Shown in pieces: positions 193 through 6,657 of a stretch of 6,657 nucleotides of DNA. Where the stretch lies: positions 1-6,657 of the forward strand of contig WFOY01000194.1 in assembly GCA_015487835.1 (NCBI GenBank). The letters run 5' to 3'. Both the position numbers and the translations under genes were made by a program. Below the pieces are notes generated by a model. It was given only the letters and a program-made list of their open reading frames with translations. It had not been told where the DNA came from and ran no database searches. Position 1 is the first letter of the stretch. Every line of letters starts with the position of its first letter. This stretch comes from Aquificaceae bacterium. GTDB taxonomy: Bacteria; Aquificota; Aquificia; Aquificales; Aquificaceae.

Positions 193-1995
193 TTGGTCGC
201 CACGAAGACGCTTTCGATGCTCGTCGCCGCTATAATCTCGGTGGTAATAGTTCCGGTTCTAATTTATTACCTGGTGAGGGGGAGGATACCCCCTGAGGAG
301 AGGAACCCCATAGTCAGGACGCTGATAAGAGTTTACGACCCCGTTTTCCACCTCGCTGTCAGGCTGAGGTACTTCATGCTCCTTCTATTTGTGGTCATGG
401 GTGTCAGCACAGTTTACTTCTACAACAAGCTGGGAAGGGAGTTCATGCCACCCCTCAACGAGGGTACCCTCCTCTACATGCCAACGTCCGTCCCGAGCGT
501 CTCGAGGCAGGAGATCTTCAGGATAATAAACCTACAGGATAGGATCTTAAAGCAGTTCCCCGAAGTTGAAACGGTCTTCGGAAAGGCTGGTAGGGCTGAG
601 ACGGCGACCGACCCTGCCCCCTTCTCCATGATAGAGACCTTCATAACGTTGAAGCCAGAGAGCGAGTGGAGGAAGGTGAAGGTGAAGAGGTTTTACTCAG
701 ACTGGAACATACCAGAACCCGTAAAGGACATCCTCAGGAAGGTCTTCCCCGAGGAGAGGAGGATAACCTTTACCGAGCTTCTGAGGGAGATGGACAGGGC
801 TGTGGCGGTCCCAGGACTCTCCAACATGTGGACCATGCCCATAAAGGGAAGGATAGACATGATAACCACGGGGATACAGACACCTCTTGGGATAAAGATA
901 TACGGAGATGACATAACCAAGCTGAACGAACTCGCCCAGGAGATAGAGCAGATGCTGAAGGACGTCCCCGGGATAATGAGTGTGTTCGGTGAGAGGGCTA
1001 TAAAGGCTACCTACGTGGAGATAAAGCCGAGGAGGGACGCCTTGGATAGGTACGGGCTCACCGTCTCTGACCTCAACATGGCGGTAGCCCAGCTTCTTGC
1101 CAACACCCCAGCCTCGACCATGATCCTTGGGAGGGAGAGGTACGCCATAACCCTCGGCGTTCCCCTCGATTACAGGTACGACCTCGAGAACCTTATGATA
1201 CCCCTCAAGGACAGGCTGATACCCCTCTCGGCGGTGGCGGAGGTGGTGAGGACCGAGAGCCCCAACGTGATAAAGTCGGAGAACGCCCTGCTCACCAGCT
1301 ACGTGTTCATAACCCCCTCCCCAGAGGTGGACATGGGGACGGTCATAGAGAGGGCGGAGGAGGTTCTAAAGGAGAAGCTGAAGCTTCCCAAAGGTTATTA
1401 TTATGAGTGGAGCGGTCAGTTCGAGTACTGGAAGAAGGCCCTCGAGAACCTAAAGGTTATAGTGCCGATCGTGATTCTTCTGATAGTCCTCCTCGTGTGG
1501 TTCACCTTCAACAGGTTGTTCGAGACGATCCTGGTTCTCCTCACGCTCCCCGTAGCTACCTTTGGTGGGGTTATGCTGATGTACCTTCTCGGCTACAACA
1601 TCTCGATAGCCTCGATAGCTGGATTTTTAGCACTCCTTGGCATAGCCGCTGAGATGGGTATAGTCATGGTGGTTTACATACAGAACTCCCTACTGCACAG
1701 GGCTGTGGAGCTGGGAGGCAGGATAGAGACGAGGGAGGAGGCCTTCGAGGCCATATACCAAGGTGCGGTGAAGAGGATAAGGCCCATATTCATGACCTTC
1801 TCCGCCATACTCCTCGGACTCCTCCCCATAATGAAGGGTCACGGGACTGGGAGCGAGGTCATGTCCAGGATAGCAGCTCCCATGGTGGGTGGGATCCTCT
1901 CCACCTTCGTGATAGTTCTCCTGTTCGTCCCAGCCCTCTACGCCATATACATGGAACTGACGATAAGGAGGAACAGAACTACCGAAGGACCCTGA
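193..1995 (+). CDS. Heavy-metal-efflux RND pump (CusA/CzcA type), C-terminal fragment
   Basis: This is the C-terminal ~600 residues of an HME-RND inner-membrane pump that would export a metal ion using the proton gradient, with a periplasmic adaptor and an outer-membrane channel. In order: TM6 (residues ~6-27, KTLSML...), TM7 (~58-77), the large periplasmic PC loop (~80-420), TM8-TM12 (~422-440, 445-465, 471-497, 529-548, 560-587). Family hallmarks are the NMW...GRIDM motif near 211-223, SGQFEYW at 407-413, GIAAEMGIVM at 483-492 with the relay Glu (E487), and GTGSEVMSRIAAPM at 551-564, which is CusA-like. Of the residues that bind Cu/Ag in E. coli CusA, the first Met is kept (M223), but the other two positions appear to be Leu (L289, L338), and the Lys of RPKAMT is Ile (I532). 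The metal therefore cannot be assigned. The start given is the first TTG after the TAA; it is probably not a natural start. Whether the fragment is made or is part of a pseudogene is unknown. Confidence 0.85.
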   Translation: MVATKTLSMLVAAIISVVIVPVLIYYLVRGRIPPEERNPIVRTLIRVYDPVFHLAVRLRYFMLLLFVVMGVSTVYFYNKLGREFMPPLNEGTLLYMPTSVPSVSRQEIFRIINLQDRILKQFPEVETVFGKAGRAETATDPAPFSMIETFITLKPESEWRKVKVKRFYSDWNIPEPVKDILRKVFPEERRITFTELLREMDRAVAVPGLSNMWTMPIKGRIDMITTGIQTPLGIKIYGDDITKLNELAQEIEQMLKDVPGIMSVFGERAIKATYVEIKPRRDALDRYGLTVSDLNMAVAQLLANTPASTMILGRERYAITLGVPLDYRYDLENLMIPLKDRLIPLSAVAEVVRTESPNVIKSENALLTSYVFITPSPEVDMGTVIERAEEVLKEKLKLPKGYYYEWSGQFEYWKKALENLKVIVPIVILLIVLLVWFTFNRLFETILVLLTLPVATFGGVMLMYLLGYNISIASIAGFLALLGIAAEMGIVMVVYIQNSLLHRAVELGGRIETREEAFEAIYQGAVKRIRPIFMTFSAILLGLLPIMKGHGTGSEVMSRIAAPMVGGILSTFVIVLLFVPALYAIYMELTIRRNRTTEGP

Positions 1996-3073
1996 CACGT
2001 ATGTGGGCCGTGAAGTCAAGCCCGTCTCCCGATATCCTGTAGCGGAACGTCCTCCCGCTCCTCCAGTCCTGGGGAGGTAGGGTTATGATCTTGCCCGCCC
2101 TGTCGTGAGCACCCGACATCTCGTAGACCTCCTCACCCGAACACCTTTGGGTTCTCGTAACCTGTCTTATGCTCCTTTCTATCACCACCAGAGGGAACAG
2201 ATCCGAGATCTTCCTTATAGCTAAGGGGCCGTTGGCGTCGCAGTCAACGGCGAGTATGGAAACGGAGATCCAGTCCGTCGGTCTGACGTTGTGGACGTAG
2301 TAGGCCAAGCCCGGGTTGTAGGTCTTGCCGCTGGATACGTTCTTGGTGCCCTTCAGTGGCCACTGGGCGGGTTTTAGCCTCTCGGAGGCGTGTCCAGGCT
2401 GGTTGGTGGTGACGTAGTTTCTGTCCCCCTTTAGAGCCATCATGATCACCTTCCAGTCGCCCGGGCTCACGTTGTCCGCGTCATCGTGAACCTCAAGGCG
2501 TGTTAGGACTATCTCCACCGATACGGGCCCACGGATCTGGGACCTGGACCCAGGTGCGGCCCTAGCCTGGGGGACGTTCCTCCTGGGAGGCTGGCTTGCC
2601 TGCGGGGGTGGGGGTGCCGGCGCTACCCTCACGGAAGGACCCCCTCCTTCGGAGGCTGCGTAAACTCCCTCCCCCTTCCTGCCTGCCATAAAACGGAAGG
2701 TGGAACTTCCCGTGGCACCCTGCCAGATCCTGTTGGCGAACTCATCCCTGAACTTCACAACCGTTCCGGACCTCGTGATGGAAACGACCACCGGCCCACC
2801 GGAGACAGGTATCTCGAAGATAAGGGTCCCTCTGGGTGTTGTTTCTCCGGGTCTCGTCATGGGTCTGTCCAGCCAGGCACACTGGCCTGGTCCTGGAGGG
2901 CTTGCGTTAGCTCCCTGGGGGGCTGGCCTGGCCTCGAGTAGGATCAGGTTCCTCGAGGACTCGTAGCTGATGGACATACCCGGACCGCCCTTGCACACCA
3001 CCGGATAGGCGGCGAATGCCTGAAGCAGAGCACCGGAGAGAAACACGACAGAAGTGAAGAGATATGCCTTCAT
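1979..3073 (-). CDS. Secreted two-domain protein of unknown function with a proline-rich linker
   Basis: I do not recognise a named family. The 364-residue product opens with a clear Sec signal peptide: Lys-2, a hydrophobic stretch to about residue 20, and a likely AxA-type cleavage near residues 20-22 (QAFA-AYP). No lipobox Cys follows. The mature part has an N-terminal domain (~23-140) with Cys27 and Cys65 (GQCAWLDR) and beta-rich sequence, a low-complexity linker (~145-180) rich in Pro, Ala, Arg and Gln, and a C-terminal domain (~183-364) opening with VEIVLTRLEVHDDADNVSPG. That Asp/Glu-rich loop could bind a metal such as calcium. Cys278 and Cys311 lie in the C-terminal domain, so one disulfide per domain is plausible. 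The start at 3073 is supported by a GGAGGGAGGG ribosome site 7 nt upstream and by the signal peptide. It is transcribed divergently from the yaaA-like operon, and its last 17 bp overlap the convergent RND gene. Likely periplasmic or extracellular. Confidence 0.85.
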   Translation of the reverse strand: MKAYLFTSVVFLSGALLQAFAAYPVVCKGGPGMSISYESSRNLILLEARPAPQGANASPPGPGQCAWLDRPMTRPGETTPRGTLIFEIPVSGGPVVVSITRSGTVVKFRDEFANRIWQGATGSSTFRFMAGRKGEGVYAASEGGGPSVRVAPAPPPPQASQPPRRNVPQARAAPGSRSQIRGPVSVEIVLTRLEVHDDADNVSPGDWKVIMMALKGDRNYVTTNQPGHASERLKPAQWPLKGTKNVSSGKTYNPGLAYYVHNVRPTDWISVSILAVDCDANGPLAIRKISDLFPLVVIERSIRQVTRTQRCSGEEVYEMSGAHDRAGKIITLPPQDWRSGRTFRYRISGDGLDFTAHIRVRVLR

Positions 3074-3168: not shown

Positions 3169-3837
3169 ATGTTCTTGTTTTTACTGCCCTGGAGCCCCGT
3201 TCAGTCCAGTTTTAGCCAGAACGGAGGTTCCTTCTGGGATGTAGGGAACAGGTTTGAGGTCTTGGACCCGCTGCGCCTTCCCCTGTTCGAGGAGTTCAGC
3301 GTAAAACCTGAACCCCTGGCACCCGTCTGGATGAGGTACAAGGGTAGGTTCTGGGAGGAGCTTTGCCTGTGGGTACTCCCGGGGAGGGTTAAGGACACCC
3401 TTGAGGAGAACGGCATCACCTTCTCGCCCCTTTTTGGGATCCTCTCCTTAGGTGACCTTATACCCAGGTACGCTGTTAGATGGGAACATAAGTATAAGGG
3501 TGTAACGCTCAGGACCTTCTGGAGGAGACACCTGGAGGGTCTTCTTATGGAACTGCTGGAGGGCAGGGTGGTTGTCGATCTCCTCGGTTACAGGGAGAGA
3601 AAGGTTGTGAGGTTTCCGGAGAGTACAAAGAGGGTTGTCTTTGAGTACTACAGATCCGGTGAGAAGCTGAAAAACACCCAGCCTCACAGGGCTTACACGT
3701 TAAGGTATATAGTGGAGATGGGGATCGGTCTCGAGGACCTTCACAGGATAAACTTCTTGGACTACAGGGTAAAGGACGTGAGGGTCTCGGGGAACCTGGT
3801 CACCGTGGTTCTCCACGGGGAGGGGAGGTACATATGA
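3169..3837 (+). CDS. YaaA-like protein (UPF0246 / DUF328 family), divergent
   Basis: The 222-residue product resembles the YaaA family, known in E. coli for limiting iron-driven damage during peroxide stress and for a DNA-binding helix-hairpin-helix-like fold. Signs of membership, in order: the N-terminal strand MFLFLLPWSP (family: LLxxSPxK); the YKG motif at 57-59; LFGILSLGDLIPRYAV at 88-103, matching LSGLYGVLRPLDLMQPYRL of the E. coli protein; FW at 117-118 (family FWG); the VVVDLLGYRE strand (family VVINLASDEY) at 134-143; and HRAYTLRYI at 173-181 (family ARGLMSRFI). It is slightly shorter than the usual ~250 residues, and the N-terminal SPxK Lys is replaced (SPVQ), so conservation of function is uncertain. 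The ATG at 3169 is chosen because the first strand of the fold begins right there; it has no ribosome site but sits at a predicted leaderless transcript start. Its stop overlaps the next gene as ATGA. Confidence 0.7.
   Translation: MFLFLLPWSPVQSSFSQNGGSFWDVGNRFEVLDPLRLPLFEEFSVKPEPLAPVWMRYKGRFWEELCLWVLPGRVKDTLEENGITFSPLFGILSLGDLIPRYAVRWEHKYKGVTLRTFWRRHLEGLLMELLEGRVVVDLLGYRERKVVRFPESTKRVVFEYYRSGEKLKNTQPHRAYTLRYIVEMGIGLEDLHRINFLDYRVKDVRVSGNLVTVVLHGEGRYI
3822..3828 (+). promoter_or_regulatory. Ribosome binding site of the glycosyltransferase gene
   Basis: GGGGAGG lies 5 nt before the ATG at 3834, inside the last codons of the yaaA-like gene. Together with the ATGA start/stop overlap, it supports the start and translational coupling. 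Confidence 0.7.
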
Positions 3838-4778
3838 TCTCGGTCGTTATACCGGCTTACAACGAGAGGGAGAACGTAACCCCCCTATACGAGAAGCTGG
3901 TGGAGGTACTGAAGGATATAGGCAGGGAATTTGAGATCATATTCGTGGACGACGGGAGCACGGACGGGACCTTCGAGGTCCTAAAGAACATCGCCGAGAA
4001 GGACAGGAGGGTCAAGGTCATAAAGTTCAGGAGGAACTACGGACAGACGGCGGCTATATACGCAGGTTTTGACCACGCCAAGGGTGACGTGATAGTTACC
4101 ATGGACGCTGACCTCCAGAACGATCCCGAAGACATACCGAAGCTTTTGGAGAGGATAGAGGAGGGCTACGACATAGTCAGCGGGTGGAGAAAGGAAAGGA
4201 AGGACCCCCTACTCACAAGAAGGGTGCCCTCGAGGATAGCCAACTGGGTAATATCGAAGGTGACCGGGGTGAAGCTCCACGATTACGGCTGCACGTTAAA
4301 GGCCTACAGGTCAAGTATAGCCAAGAGATACAGGCTCTACGGGGACATGCACAGGTTCCTCCCTGCCCTCGCCAAGAGGTTTGGAGCGAAGATAACGGAG
4401 ATCCCGGTGAGGCACCATCCAAGACTCCACGGGAGGTCCAAGTACGGCATAGACAGGACCCTGAGGGTTATCCTCGACATATTTCTGGTTAAGTTCCTGA
4501 ACGAGTATATAACAAAACCCCTATACGTTTTCGGCGGTGTAGGTTTCATCATGTTCAGCTTGGGTTTCCTTATAGAACTCTACCTGACCTTCATAAAGAT
4601 CTTCAGAGGTGAGGACATAGGGGGGAGGCCCCTTTTGATCCTTGGAGTTCTGCTCATACTCGCGGGTATCCAGCTAATATCCACGGGGATAATAGCCGAG
4701 CTGATAGTGAGGACTTACTACGAGTCGAGGGGGGAGAAGCCTTACATAATCGAGGAGAAAATAAACGTGGAGGACTGA
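3834..4778 (+). CDS. Family 2 glycosyltransferase, polyprenyl-phosphate sugar transferase (GtrB/DPM1 type)
   Basis: This protein likely transfers a sugar from a nucleotide donor to a polyprenyl phosphate (such as undecaprenyl phosphate) on the cytoplasmic face of the membrane, giving a lipid-linked sugar for envelope glycan or protein modification. A GT-A domain spans ~1-215: ISVVIPAYNERENV at the N-terminus, donor-binding VDDGSTDGT with D39-D40, FRRNYGQTAAIYAGF at 65-79, the metal-binding DAD at 91-93 within DADLQNDPED, GCTLKAYR at 152-159, and the basic HHPRLHGRSKYG at 194-205. Two membrane segments follow (~229-256 and ~266-294), as in GtrB-like enzymes, then a charged tail. The length of 314 residues is normal for this subfamily. 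It overlaps the yaaA-like gene by 4 bp and precedes the PLD-HerA gene by 10 bp, so it is the middle gene of an operon. No flippase or further glycan gene is visible, so the sugar and the acceptor are unknown. Confidence 0.88.
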   Translation: MISVVIPAYNERENVTPLYEKLVEVLKDIGREFEIIFVDDGSTDGTFEVLKNIAEKDRRVKVIKFRRNYGQTAAIYAGFDHAKGDVIVTMDADLQNDPEDIPKLLERIEEGYDIVSGWRKERKDPLLTRRVPSRIANWVISKVTGVKLHDYGCTLKAYRSSIAKRYRLYGDMHRFLPALAKRFGAKITEIPVRHHPRLHGRSKYGIDRTLRVILDIFLVKFLNEYITKPLYVFGGVGFIMFSLGFLIELYLTFIKIFRGEDIGGRPLLILGVLLILAGIQLISTGIIAELIVRTYYESRGEKPYIIEEKINVED

Positions 4779-4788
4779 TCTTAAACTT

Positions 4789-6657
4789 ATGGACGTCCTT
4801 ACGGGCGAGGATATAGAGAGGAGGCTGAGGGACCTTTTCAGGAAGGCTGAAAGGTATGTGAAGATAGCCTCTCCCTGGGTAAAGGGGGAGATCCTCAGGG
4901 ACCTCCTCTCGGAGGCTGGTGACGGGGTCAGGGTAGAGGTTATACTGAGGGCCTCCTCGGAGGAGGATCTCTCCATAACAGATCCAGGAACCTTCCTCTA
5001 CCTGAAGGAGAGAAAGGGGGAGGTGTTCCTTAACCCCAGGATCCATGCCAAGGTGTTTATAGTGGATGGGAGGGAGGCTGTGGTCGGGTCCGCAAACCTC
5101 ACACCCTCAGGTGTCAGGGGTCAGGAGAACCTGGAGGTGGCCCTCCACCTTAAGGGAAGATCCCAGGTGAAGGACCTTGAGGAGTTCTTTGAGAGGGCCA
5201 AGGCCGAGTCCTATAACCTTTCGAAGACTGTGGGTATTGTCTTCAGAACCGACTCGGCGAGGGAAGGCGAGCTGGTACTGGTAAGGGAGGTCCAGGAGCA
5301 GACCTACGTGAGGGTACCCCTCACAGGGGGCTTTCTCCTCGGGAGGATAACGAAGGTCAGGTCACCAGGCCCTGAGGAGGACCTCACCTGGAAGAGACTA
5401 CCGCAGGATAGAGACTGGAGGGCCGCCCTTCTGATAGCCAGATCTTTGGAGAGGGAGGGACTGAGGCTGGGCAGGTTCGAGATCCTCGGAGAGTACGAGA
5501 GGGAGAGGGACCTCTTCAAGGTGCCCACGACACCGGTGATCGTAGGTGCCCCCGTGGAGATTTTAGATCCCAAAGACCGGGACCTCCTGTCCATACTCAG
5601 GAAGAACCACTCGGGCTATCCGATGAGCATGCCGGTGTATGTAGGTAAGCTGATGGGGTCGGAGGTGGAGGCTTTCCTGGACATGGACAAGGTTGTCTCC
5701 ATGCACATGGCAGTTCTGGGCACAACCGGTTCAGGGAAGACCACCTTTGTGAGGAAGATCCTGGGTAACTTAGAGAACAAGGTGGAACTCTTCCTGTTCG
5801 ATATGTACGGGGAGTACGTGGAACACATCGGAGGCAGGGTTAGGCACCTTGTCGTTCCCAACATTCTCCTCCCAACGGACTGGGAGGACCTGAAGAAGAT
5901 ACTCAGGGAAGGTGGTGTAAATGTGGGGGAGAGAACGACCGAGGAGAAGGATCTTGCGGTCTTCATGAGGAGGAGCCTAAAGCCCGATCTGACCAAGACC
6001 TCACTCAGGGAGAGGTCCCTTGAGGAGGTGATCAGGGAAGGCATAAAGGGCATTAGAGATGCAGCCCTCAAAGAGAGTGTGGAGGAGGCCATCGAGTTCT
6101 TTAAGGAGATGTTTGGCCCCGAGTCCGTGAGGGACCAGCCCCTTCTGATAAAGGAGCTCGCCGCCTCACTGAGGGGAGACCAGAGCAGGGTCATCTACGA
6201 CTTTAGGGAGGTGGACCTTTCTGAGACGAGGTTGGCGGTGGGAGGCTTGGTCCTCAGGGAGGTCCTAAGGCTGGTCAAAAAGAAACCTGGCGACAGGCTG
6301 GTCGTCATCGAGGAGGCCCACAACTTCGCCCCGGAGAGGGGGACCGGAGAGGTCCAGATGGGAAGGGAGAACCTGGCCTACCTTAGCCTAAGACGCATAG
6401 CCATGGAGGGTAGGAAGTTCAGGATCGGCCTCATAGCCATAACCCAAAGGCCTGCGAACATAAGCAAGTTCATCCTATCCCAGCTGAACACCCAGGTCAT
6501 ATTCAAGCTCATAACGAGGAACGATCTGGAGGCGGTGTCCGTCTTCTTCGAGCACTCTAAAGAGGACGTATTCAGACTGCTGCCCTTCTTAAAACCGGGC
6601 ACCGCCTTTATAACGGGCTTAGCGGTTCCCTTCGGCTTCCTCTTCCACATGGAGGAG
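4789..6657 (+). CDS. PLD-family nuclease domain fused to a HerA-type ATPase, 3' end outside the window
   Basis: The frame is open from the ATG at 4789 to the right edge (623 codons, no stop), so the C-terminus is missing. Residues ~5-140 form a phospholipase-D-superfamily domain with one HKD motif: H86, K88 and D93 in IHAKVFIVD, then GSAN at 100-103 and LTPSG. Residues ~145-290 look like the HAS barrel of HerA proteins (VGIVFR...LLGRITKV). The RecA-like motor follows: Walker A GTTGSGKT at 311-318, FDMYGEY with D338, a long helical insert at ~360-480, Walker B LVVIEEAH at 504-511 with E508/E509, and the ITQRP sensor strand at 551-555. HerA is a hexameric DNA translocase, usually paired with the separate nuclease NurA; here a candidate nuclease is built in. 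The start has only a distant GGAGG (4769-4773, 15 nt away), but a TAA at 4762-4764 with no ATG, GTG or TTG after it rules out a longer frame. It is probably co-transcribed with the two upstream genes. The role (DNA-end processing or phage defence) is inferred. Confidence 0.88.
   Translation, partial: MDVLTGEDIERRLRDLFRKAERYVKIASPWVKGEILRDLLSEAGDGVRVEVILRASSEEDLSITDPGTFLYLKERKGEVFLNPRIHAKVFIVDGREAVVGSANLTPSGVRGQENLEVALHLKGRSQVKDLEEFFERAKAESYNLSKTVGIVFRTDSAREGELVLVREVQEQTYVRVPLTGGFLLGRITKVRSPGPEEDLTWKRLPQDRDWRAALLIARSLEREGLRLGRFEILGEYERERDLFKVPTTPVIVGAPVEILDPKDRDLLSILRKNHSGYPMSMPVYVGKLMGSEVEAFLDMDKVVSMHMAVLGTTGSGKTTFVRKILGNLENKVELFLFDMYGEYVEHIGGRVRHLVVPNILLPTDWEDLKKILREGGVNVGERTTEEKDLAVFMRRSLKPDLTKTSLRERSLEEVIREGIKGIRDAALKESVEEAIEFFKEMFGPESVRDQPLLIKELAASLRGDQSRVIYDFREVDLSETRLAVGGLVLREVLRLVKKKPGDRLVVIEEAHNFAPERGTGEVQMGRENLAYLSLRRIAMEGRKFRIGLIAITQRPANISKFILSQLNTQVIFKLITRNDLEAVSVFFEHSKEDVFRLLPFLKPGTAFITGLAVPFGFLFHMEE

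Follow-up and report, generated by a model that had tools for sequence, protein, structure and literature searches.

PLD-HerA, a single-chain fusion of a PLD-superfamily domain and a HerA motor, forms a two-clade family in Aquificota

We analysed a stretch of 6,657 nucleotides from an Aquificaceae bacterium (contig WFOY01000194.1 of assembly GCA_015487835.1; in the following, the window). Its last gene, here called PLD-HerA, encodes a phospholipase D (PLD) superfamily domain, a HAS barrel and the RecA-type motor of HerA, joined in frame in a single chain. Proteins built in this way make up an established family in the Aquificota, most of which are heat-loving, rather than a one-off. The copies fall into two clades (A and B, labels of this analysis). 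The bold part of the finding is how these divide: one is resident and includes the window copy, the other looks more mobile and is in some cases linked to defence. We think it fairly probable that PLD-HerA is a self-contained DNA-feeding nuclease ring, i.e., a one-gene counterpart of HerA-NurA, which is resident in clade A and sits in mobile or defence loci in clade B.

The first-pass annotation had proposed an in-frame fusion of an HKD-type phosphodiesterase and a HerA motor. This was borne out for both halves by Pfam and structure matches, including a PLD match for residues 1-140. The DUF87 domain of the window protein scores 85.6 bits against a curated Pfam cut-off of 23.2. The Pfam HAS-barrel model reaches 15.9 bits, below its cut-off, and the predicted structure aligns with HerA chains from residue 143 onward. 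Structure comparison gives the PLD half the Nuc/NucT fold with one HKD motif. The intact Walker A, acidic Walker B and sensor Gln, also part of that annotation, are all invariant columns in a 74-row alignment. Homologues keep the nuclease motif as well: among 190 fetched proteins (590-690 amino acids (aa)), HxKxxxxD is present in all 188 that bear a PLD domain, the remaining two lacking this domain. The G of GSxN is replaced in two proteins of the wider set (P0011, P0187). Within clade A, the mean identity is 48.0% for residues 1-142 and 50.0% for the remainder (91 pairs, 14 genomes; the cut between the halves is fixed at residue 142 and thus rough). That is, both halves are similarly conserved and thus seem to be under selection, which speaks for cutting and pumping both being in use.

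The equivalog cut-offs of NCBIfam are reached neither for helicase_HerA (79.8 vs. 970 bits; 72.7 vs. 800) nor for the anti-phage models HerA_antiphage and SIR2/DUF4297-HerA (91.6 vs. 800; 69.8 vs. 850), and database names of homologues are generic (e.g., 'helicase HerA domain-containing protein'). Titles, abstract starts and passages of the open-licence PubMed Central literature yielded no description of a PLD-HerA fusion.

How such a protein might work can be outlined from its parts. HerA proteins are rings, and the HerA-type motor would be expected to form a hexameric ring that pumps double-stranded DNA, at the expense of ATP, toward six PLD domains. These would be placed on the HAS face, i.e., where NurA docks in HerA-NurA. 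Single-HKD domains need dimerisation, as in Nuc; here, they may pair into composite active sites, three pairs per ring, and cut the DNA. The chemistry of the PLD superfamily is metal-independent and involves a covalent phospho-histidine, and cutting by PLD-HerA would presumably follow this route. Clade A would serve as a resident means of destroying or trimming DNA ends, foreign or broken, where no canonical HerA is found, and clade B would be the same machine after its uptake by mobile and defence loci, among them those of type III-A CRISPR. According to excerpts of the respective sources, NurA of Deinococcus is bound by the HAS barrels of HerA (PMC9960219), while Thermococcus HerA feeds double-stranded DNA to NurA such that both strands are cut, the authors arguing for a possibly antiviral function rather than a resectase (PMC12977600).

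Next, we consider the spread of the family. Genomes, loci, families and genera are labelled by G, L, f and g, respectively, where f1 is the family of the window, which we infer to be the Aquificaceae; open reading frames (ORFs) for genome comparisons were called mechanically. At a threshold of 1e-20, the fusion profile has matches in 102/136 Aquificota genomes, and 77/136 have matches of at least 300 bits, the level of the fusion. Weaker listed matches are canonical or other HerA proteins (up to 156 bits), second pieces of split genes, and remnants (G035, G057). Three of the 77 genomes (G001, G016, G103) show the motor half alone because their contigs start within PLD-HerA, and stops or splits occur in some copies (G045, G117, G133). 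Contigs also end or start inside PLD-HerA at position 6657 of the window, in L013, L014 and L016, and in further contigs of metagenome-assembled genomes (MAGs).

Within f1, 43/64 genomes have a PLD-HerA match, as do 27/34 of those that are at least 95% complete. Of the seven absences in the latter set, that in G070 is unsafe, since coaE, the usual neighbour in that genus, sits at a contig end. For G080 (65% complete), coaE is followed by a gene that in other genomes lies beyond PLD-HerA and dtd, both of which are missing. In an empty-site comparison for g3, the flanking gene has no match in G027. Beyond the Aquificota, matches of profile and single-sequence searches carry the names Hippea, Candidatus Kryptonium, Thermotogae, Pyrinomonadaceae and Acidobacteria, and some of them may be mislabelled MAGs. 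A viral origin was considered and rejected: in ten viral contigs with a relative, no matched stretch extends into the PLD part (lowest query residue 143), and phage records yielded one partial HerA match.

A tree of 51 full-length copies separates clade A (31 copies) from clade B (20), each with 100/100 support; the root serves for drawing only, and 8/48 inner branches are open. Clade A combines f3 copies with 20 f1 copies including that of the window, and clade B consists of ten f5 and ten f1 copies. Genus labels change 20 times on this tree given a minimum of 19, and descent is therefore mostly vertical within genera. One f3 copy (G040) groups among the clade-A copies of the window's genus and was likely acquired by transfer, judging from this placement. 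Both clades are present in G004, G015 and G019.

We also related PLD-HerA divergence to that of NurA. For clade A, this covers 14 of the 20 full-length copies from f1, since no NurA was on file for the remaining six. The mean identity over 91 pairs is 49.4 for PLD-HerA and 47.6 for NurA, with PLD-HerA lower in 29/91, and the identities correlate with a Mantel r of 0.93 (0/2000 permutations as high). That is, divergence within clade A keeps pace with that of NurA, a core nuclease, without sign of fast evolution. For the seven f1 copies of clade B, PLD-HerA is more alike than NurA in 19/21 pairs, e.g., 67-68% vs. 35% when G009 is compared with G018 or G034; only G013-G004 (54 vs. 59) and G004-G015 (59 vs. 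60) deviate. This suggests transfer, or slower change in clade B. A broken PLD-HerA, annotated as two frames, is found on plasmid ece1 of Aquifex aeolicus VF5 (NC_001880; L147:11166-13107), which also bears PIN, AbiEii and IS5 genes. The eight copies scoring best against it all belong to clade B (best 842 bits), and the better of two clade-A copies looked up reaches 387 bits. From this plasmid copy and the CRISPR-linked copies of two genera described below, clade B looks more mobile.

Gene neighbourhoods were compared for 40 fetched PLD-HerA regions, whose flanks vary between genera. A constant neighbour gene can be dismissed, i.e., no gene cluster occurs in more than 7/40 regions, the commonest being an acetyltransferase; the blocks NurA-obgE, Dtd and LolA are common to two or three genera. 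Scans of neighbour ORFs covered 91/107 for clade B (16 loci) and 81/124 for clade A (15 loci, namely the 16 chosen ones except L139). Clade-A surroundings hold housekeeping genes such as hom, obgE, coaE, dtd, lolA and trpB (assigned by eye, several confirmed by Pfam). Three PADLOC families (MzaA, REase_II, mad2) are represented among the 81 neighbours, each by one member; ten neighbours picked to locate them gave no match. The clade-B neighbours include at least RAMP proteins (4 members), AbiEii (3) and 61 PADLOC families, the latter being largely redundant models of few proteins. The contrast is small and concerns the kind of neighbour more than the count. Nonetheless, it is clade B that has clear defence gene clusters around it, and none were seen around clade A, that of the window.

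Two of these clusters are type III-A CRISPR loci, from two genera (L134, 1003-10076; L135, 1788-9759). The gene order is cas10-csm2-csm3-csm4-csm5-cas6-PLD-HerA in G131, where the ATG of PLD-HerA precedes the end of cas6 by 20 bases, and cas10-csm2-csm3-csm4-csm5-PLD-HerA in G135, where the csm5 stop and the PLD-HerA ATG share TGATG. In G133, a genome from the genus of G135, alignment at 72-79% begins with the start of PLD-HerA, which here is split into two frames; no counterpart of the csm block was found in the fetched stretch, nor a Cas10 match in the genome. Further clade-B copies have RmuC and a type III restriction-modification pair (G127) or AbiEii (G004) as neighbours. In G119 (L137, 1680-9988), the genes after PLD-HerA on its strand encode a trypsin-like protease, a 722-aa HerA that matches a 'Type III coevolved' PADLOC model with 139 bits, and a weakly REase-like protein; from its gene content, L137 appears to be a defence cluster containing two HerA motors. 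No Cas10 match was obtained for the window genome or for other clade-A genomes such as G004, G007, G019, G021 and G066, and type III CRISPR is therefore no requirement for clade A. Likewise, no cas family was found among the five window proteins scanned.

Given these loci, PLD-HerA could primarily be an anti-phage effector in both clades, with the window copy as a resident single-gene defence. We rate this as possible but rather unlikely. The copies behind type III-A genes, beside the restriction-modification pair and AbiEii, and within the G119 cluster are what it would lead one to expect, as are the losses and broken copies; moreover, the closest solved sequences are HerA proteins, several of them from anti-phage complexes. 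Clade A does not fit well, since its neighbours are mostly housekeeping genes with only three single-member PADLOC families among 81, and since it changes at the pace of NurA with no fast evolution seen.

A second question is how PLD-HerA relates to NurA and canonical HerA. The window genome encodes a bacterial-type NurA on another contig (L087:3077-4060; G000:C99). A separate NurA next to the fusion would have counted against the first-pass annotation. Both contigs are short, and the distance was therefore taken from relatives: nurA is more than 100 kb away from PLD-HerA in all seven f1 genomes that have the two on a single large contig (G007, G017, G019, G024, G026, G031, G033). Taking D57, E156 and D175 to be the catalytic residues, the NurA of the window's family is intact-looking. 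It is found in 58/64 f1 genomes and in 34/34 of the near-complete ones. Canonical HerA (DUF87 of at least 138 bits, 513-554 aa) is present in 17/17 f3 genomes and in 0/37 f1 genomes searched. Besides PLD-HerA, the best f1 DUF87 match is a 599-aa HerA in G010 with 77.9 bits, others having at most 38. A 604-aa NurA-family protein is encoded just 5' of this HerA (L103:5335-7146), in a genome without a PLD-HerA match; the two genes may form an anti-phage-like pair.

These data bear on the idea that PLD-HerA took the place of canonical HerA as NurA's partner in the window's family and is dedicated to end resection at double-strand breaks, which we consider improbable. A strict pairing of NurA and PLD-HerA was rejected: PF09376 suggested that g10 and f2 lack both, and a family-specific profile found NurA there. 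NurA thus persists where PLD-HerA is unmatched (g10, most of f2, G027, G076). The distance between both genes in the seven genomes argues in the same direction, as does the expected position of the fused PLD domain at the NurA docking site; in addition, many f3 genomes carry canonical HerA plus PLD-HerA. Replacement of RecB-type enzymes was rejected as well, since 8/9 f3 genomes with a large RecB-like protein have PLD-HerA, the opposite of what replacement implies. Without such a protein, PLD-HerA is found in 1/8 f3 genomes (G052), and G057 has remnants. Among the matches listed for 61 genomes, RecB-like frames of 976-1023 aa occur in f3 only (G038, G040, G044, G046, G051, G054, G055, G058, G060).

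Compared with known systems, PLD-HerA combines familiar parts in a different way. Nuc and NucT share fold and single HKD motif with its N-terminal domain and are stand-alone nucleases, whereas the PLD domain here is fused to a DNA motor. HerA-NurA of Thermococcus, Deinococcus and Sulfolobus uses a separate RNase-H-fold NurA dimer, i.e., two nuclease subunits, in contrast to the fused PLD nuclease with six domains per predicted ring. The anti-phage systems SIR2-HerA and DUF4297-HerA differ in that PLD-HerA has its effector, of PLD type, in the same chain. No such partner gene or other effector adjoins the window copy: a glycosyltransferase and a YaaA-like gene lie upstream, the downstream side is lost at the contig end, and the downstream gene in three relatives (G004, G007, G016) is homoserine dehydrogenase. 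PADLOC model PDLC01055 ('HerA, Type III coevolved') matches the window protein (E 3.4e-23, 80.3 bits), and type III-A genes precede two of the clade-B copies; the window copy itself is away from cas genes and scores higher on other PADLOC HerA models (best 130.6 bits). Excerpts of PMC10853773 and PMC12839542 describe PbeA, helicases related to bacteriophage exclusion (BREX) and BrxL-HKD, which like PLD-HerA join an HKD nuclease and a DNA motor in one chain; in place of HerA, they have a superfamily 2 (SF2) or Swi2/Snf2 helicase or BrxL as the motor.

HerA motors are studied as ATPases separate from the nuclease or toxin that they recruit. A built-in nuclease would fix the stoichiometry and drop the docking step, and the coupling of pumping and cutting would become directly testable in one, probably thermostable, protein. 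PLD-HerA is a candidate for DNA-end processing or destruction in these bacteria without canonical HerA or a RecB above cut-off. The best lead are the copies behind csm genes, which might provide a DNA-degrading arm for type III immunity. Only tentatively do we extend this to a resident genome guardian in clade A and a portable defence module in clade B, the latter acting as a Csm-activated DNA-shredding arm, without need for a separate nuclease or metal ions.

Several observations weigh against the DNA-feeding nuclease ring with resident and mobile clades. PLD-HerA has no match in 7/34 near-complete f1 genomes and is broken in several others. It is thus dispensable, unlike NurA (34/34), and an essential repair role is therefore unlikely. 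Among f3 genomes, PLD-HerA tends to be found together with a large RecB-like protein rather than in its place. Defence-type neighbours are found in at least 4/16 clade-B loci vs. at most 3/15 clade-A loci, a small and statistically untested contrast, and the type III-A link, seen in 2/16 clade-B loci examined, is no general rule of the clade. The window genome (G000, 81% complete) has no Cas10 match. Finally, enzymes of the broad PLD superfamily also act on lipids and other phosphodiesters, phospholipase D ties with nucleases in the fold comparison, and cardiolipin synthases are among the NCBIfam matches, albeit far under cut-off; on these three points one might suppose that the motor moves DNA while the PLD domain has a different substrate (lipid, RNA or a protein-DNA adduct), which we regard as very unlikely.

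The features of the gene and its direct neighbour are listed in Table 1. The window frame ends four residues before the full length of its 627-aa twin.

Table 1. Positions of PLD-HerA, its domains and motifs, and the upstream gene in the window
Feature	Position	Strand	Remark
PLD-HerA fusion gene	4789..6657	+	623 of about 627 codons; 3' end lost at contig end
N-terminal PLD domain (Nuc-like, single HKD), residues 1-143	4789..5217	+	
HxKxxxxD motif (H86, K88, D93)	5044..5067	+	invariant, 74-row alignment
GSxN motif, PLD active site (G100, S101, N103)	5086..5097	+	invariant, 74-row alignment
HAS-barrel region, residues 144-300	5218..5688	+	weak Pfam match and structure alignment to HerA
RecA-type HerA motor, residues 301-623	5689..6657	+	
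Walker A GTTGSGKT, residues 311-318	5719..5742	+	G311, T313, G314, G316, K317 invariant
Walker B strand, last residues E508-E509	6295..6315	+	E508, E509 invariant
Sensor Gln Q553, TQRP motif	6445..6447	+	Q553, R554, P555 invariant
Family-2 glycosyltransferase gene, upstream of PLD-HerA	3834..4778	+	Pfam PF00535

The remainder of the window starts with an efflux gene of the AcrB/AcrD family (resistance-nodulation-division type; 1-1995) with a single in-frame stop at 187-189, i.e., either a pseudogene or an assembly error. A predicted protein of 364 aa without Pfam or NCBIfam match is encoded on the minus strand (1979-3073). The glycosyltransferase gene stops 10 bases 5' of PLD-HerA and also adjoins it in G004, G007 and G005; we take it as a neighbour common to same-genus relatives and claim no functional link. 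It is overlapped by the gene of a diverged protein of the YaaA (peroxide stress) family (3169-3837), and this order is the same in G007 and G005.
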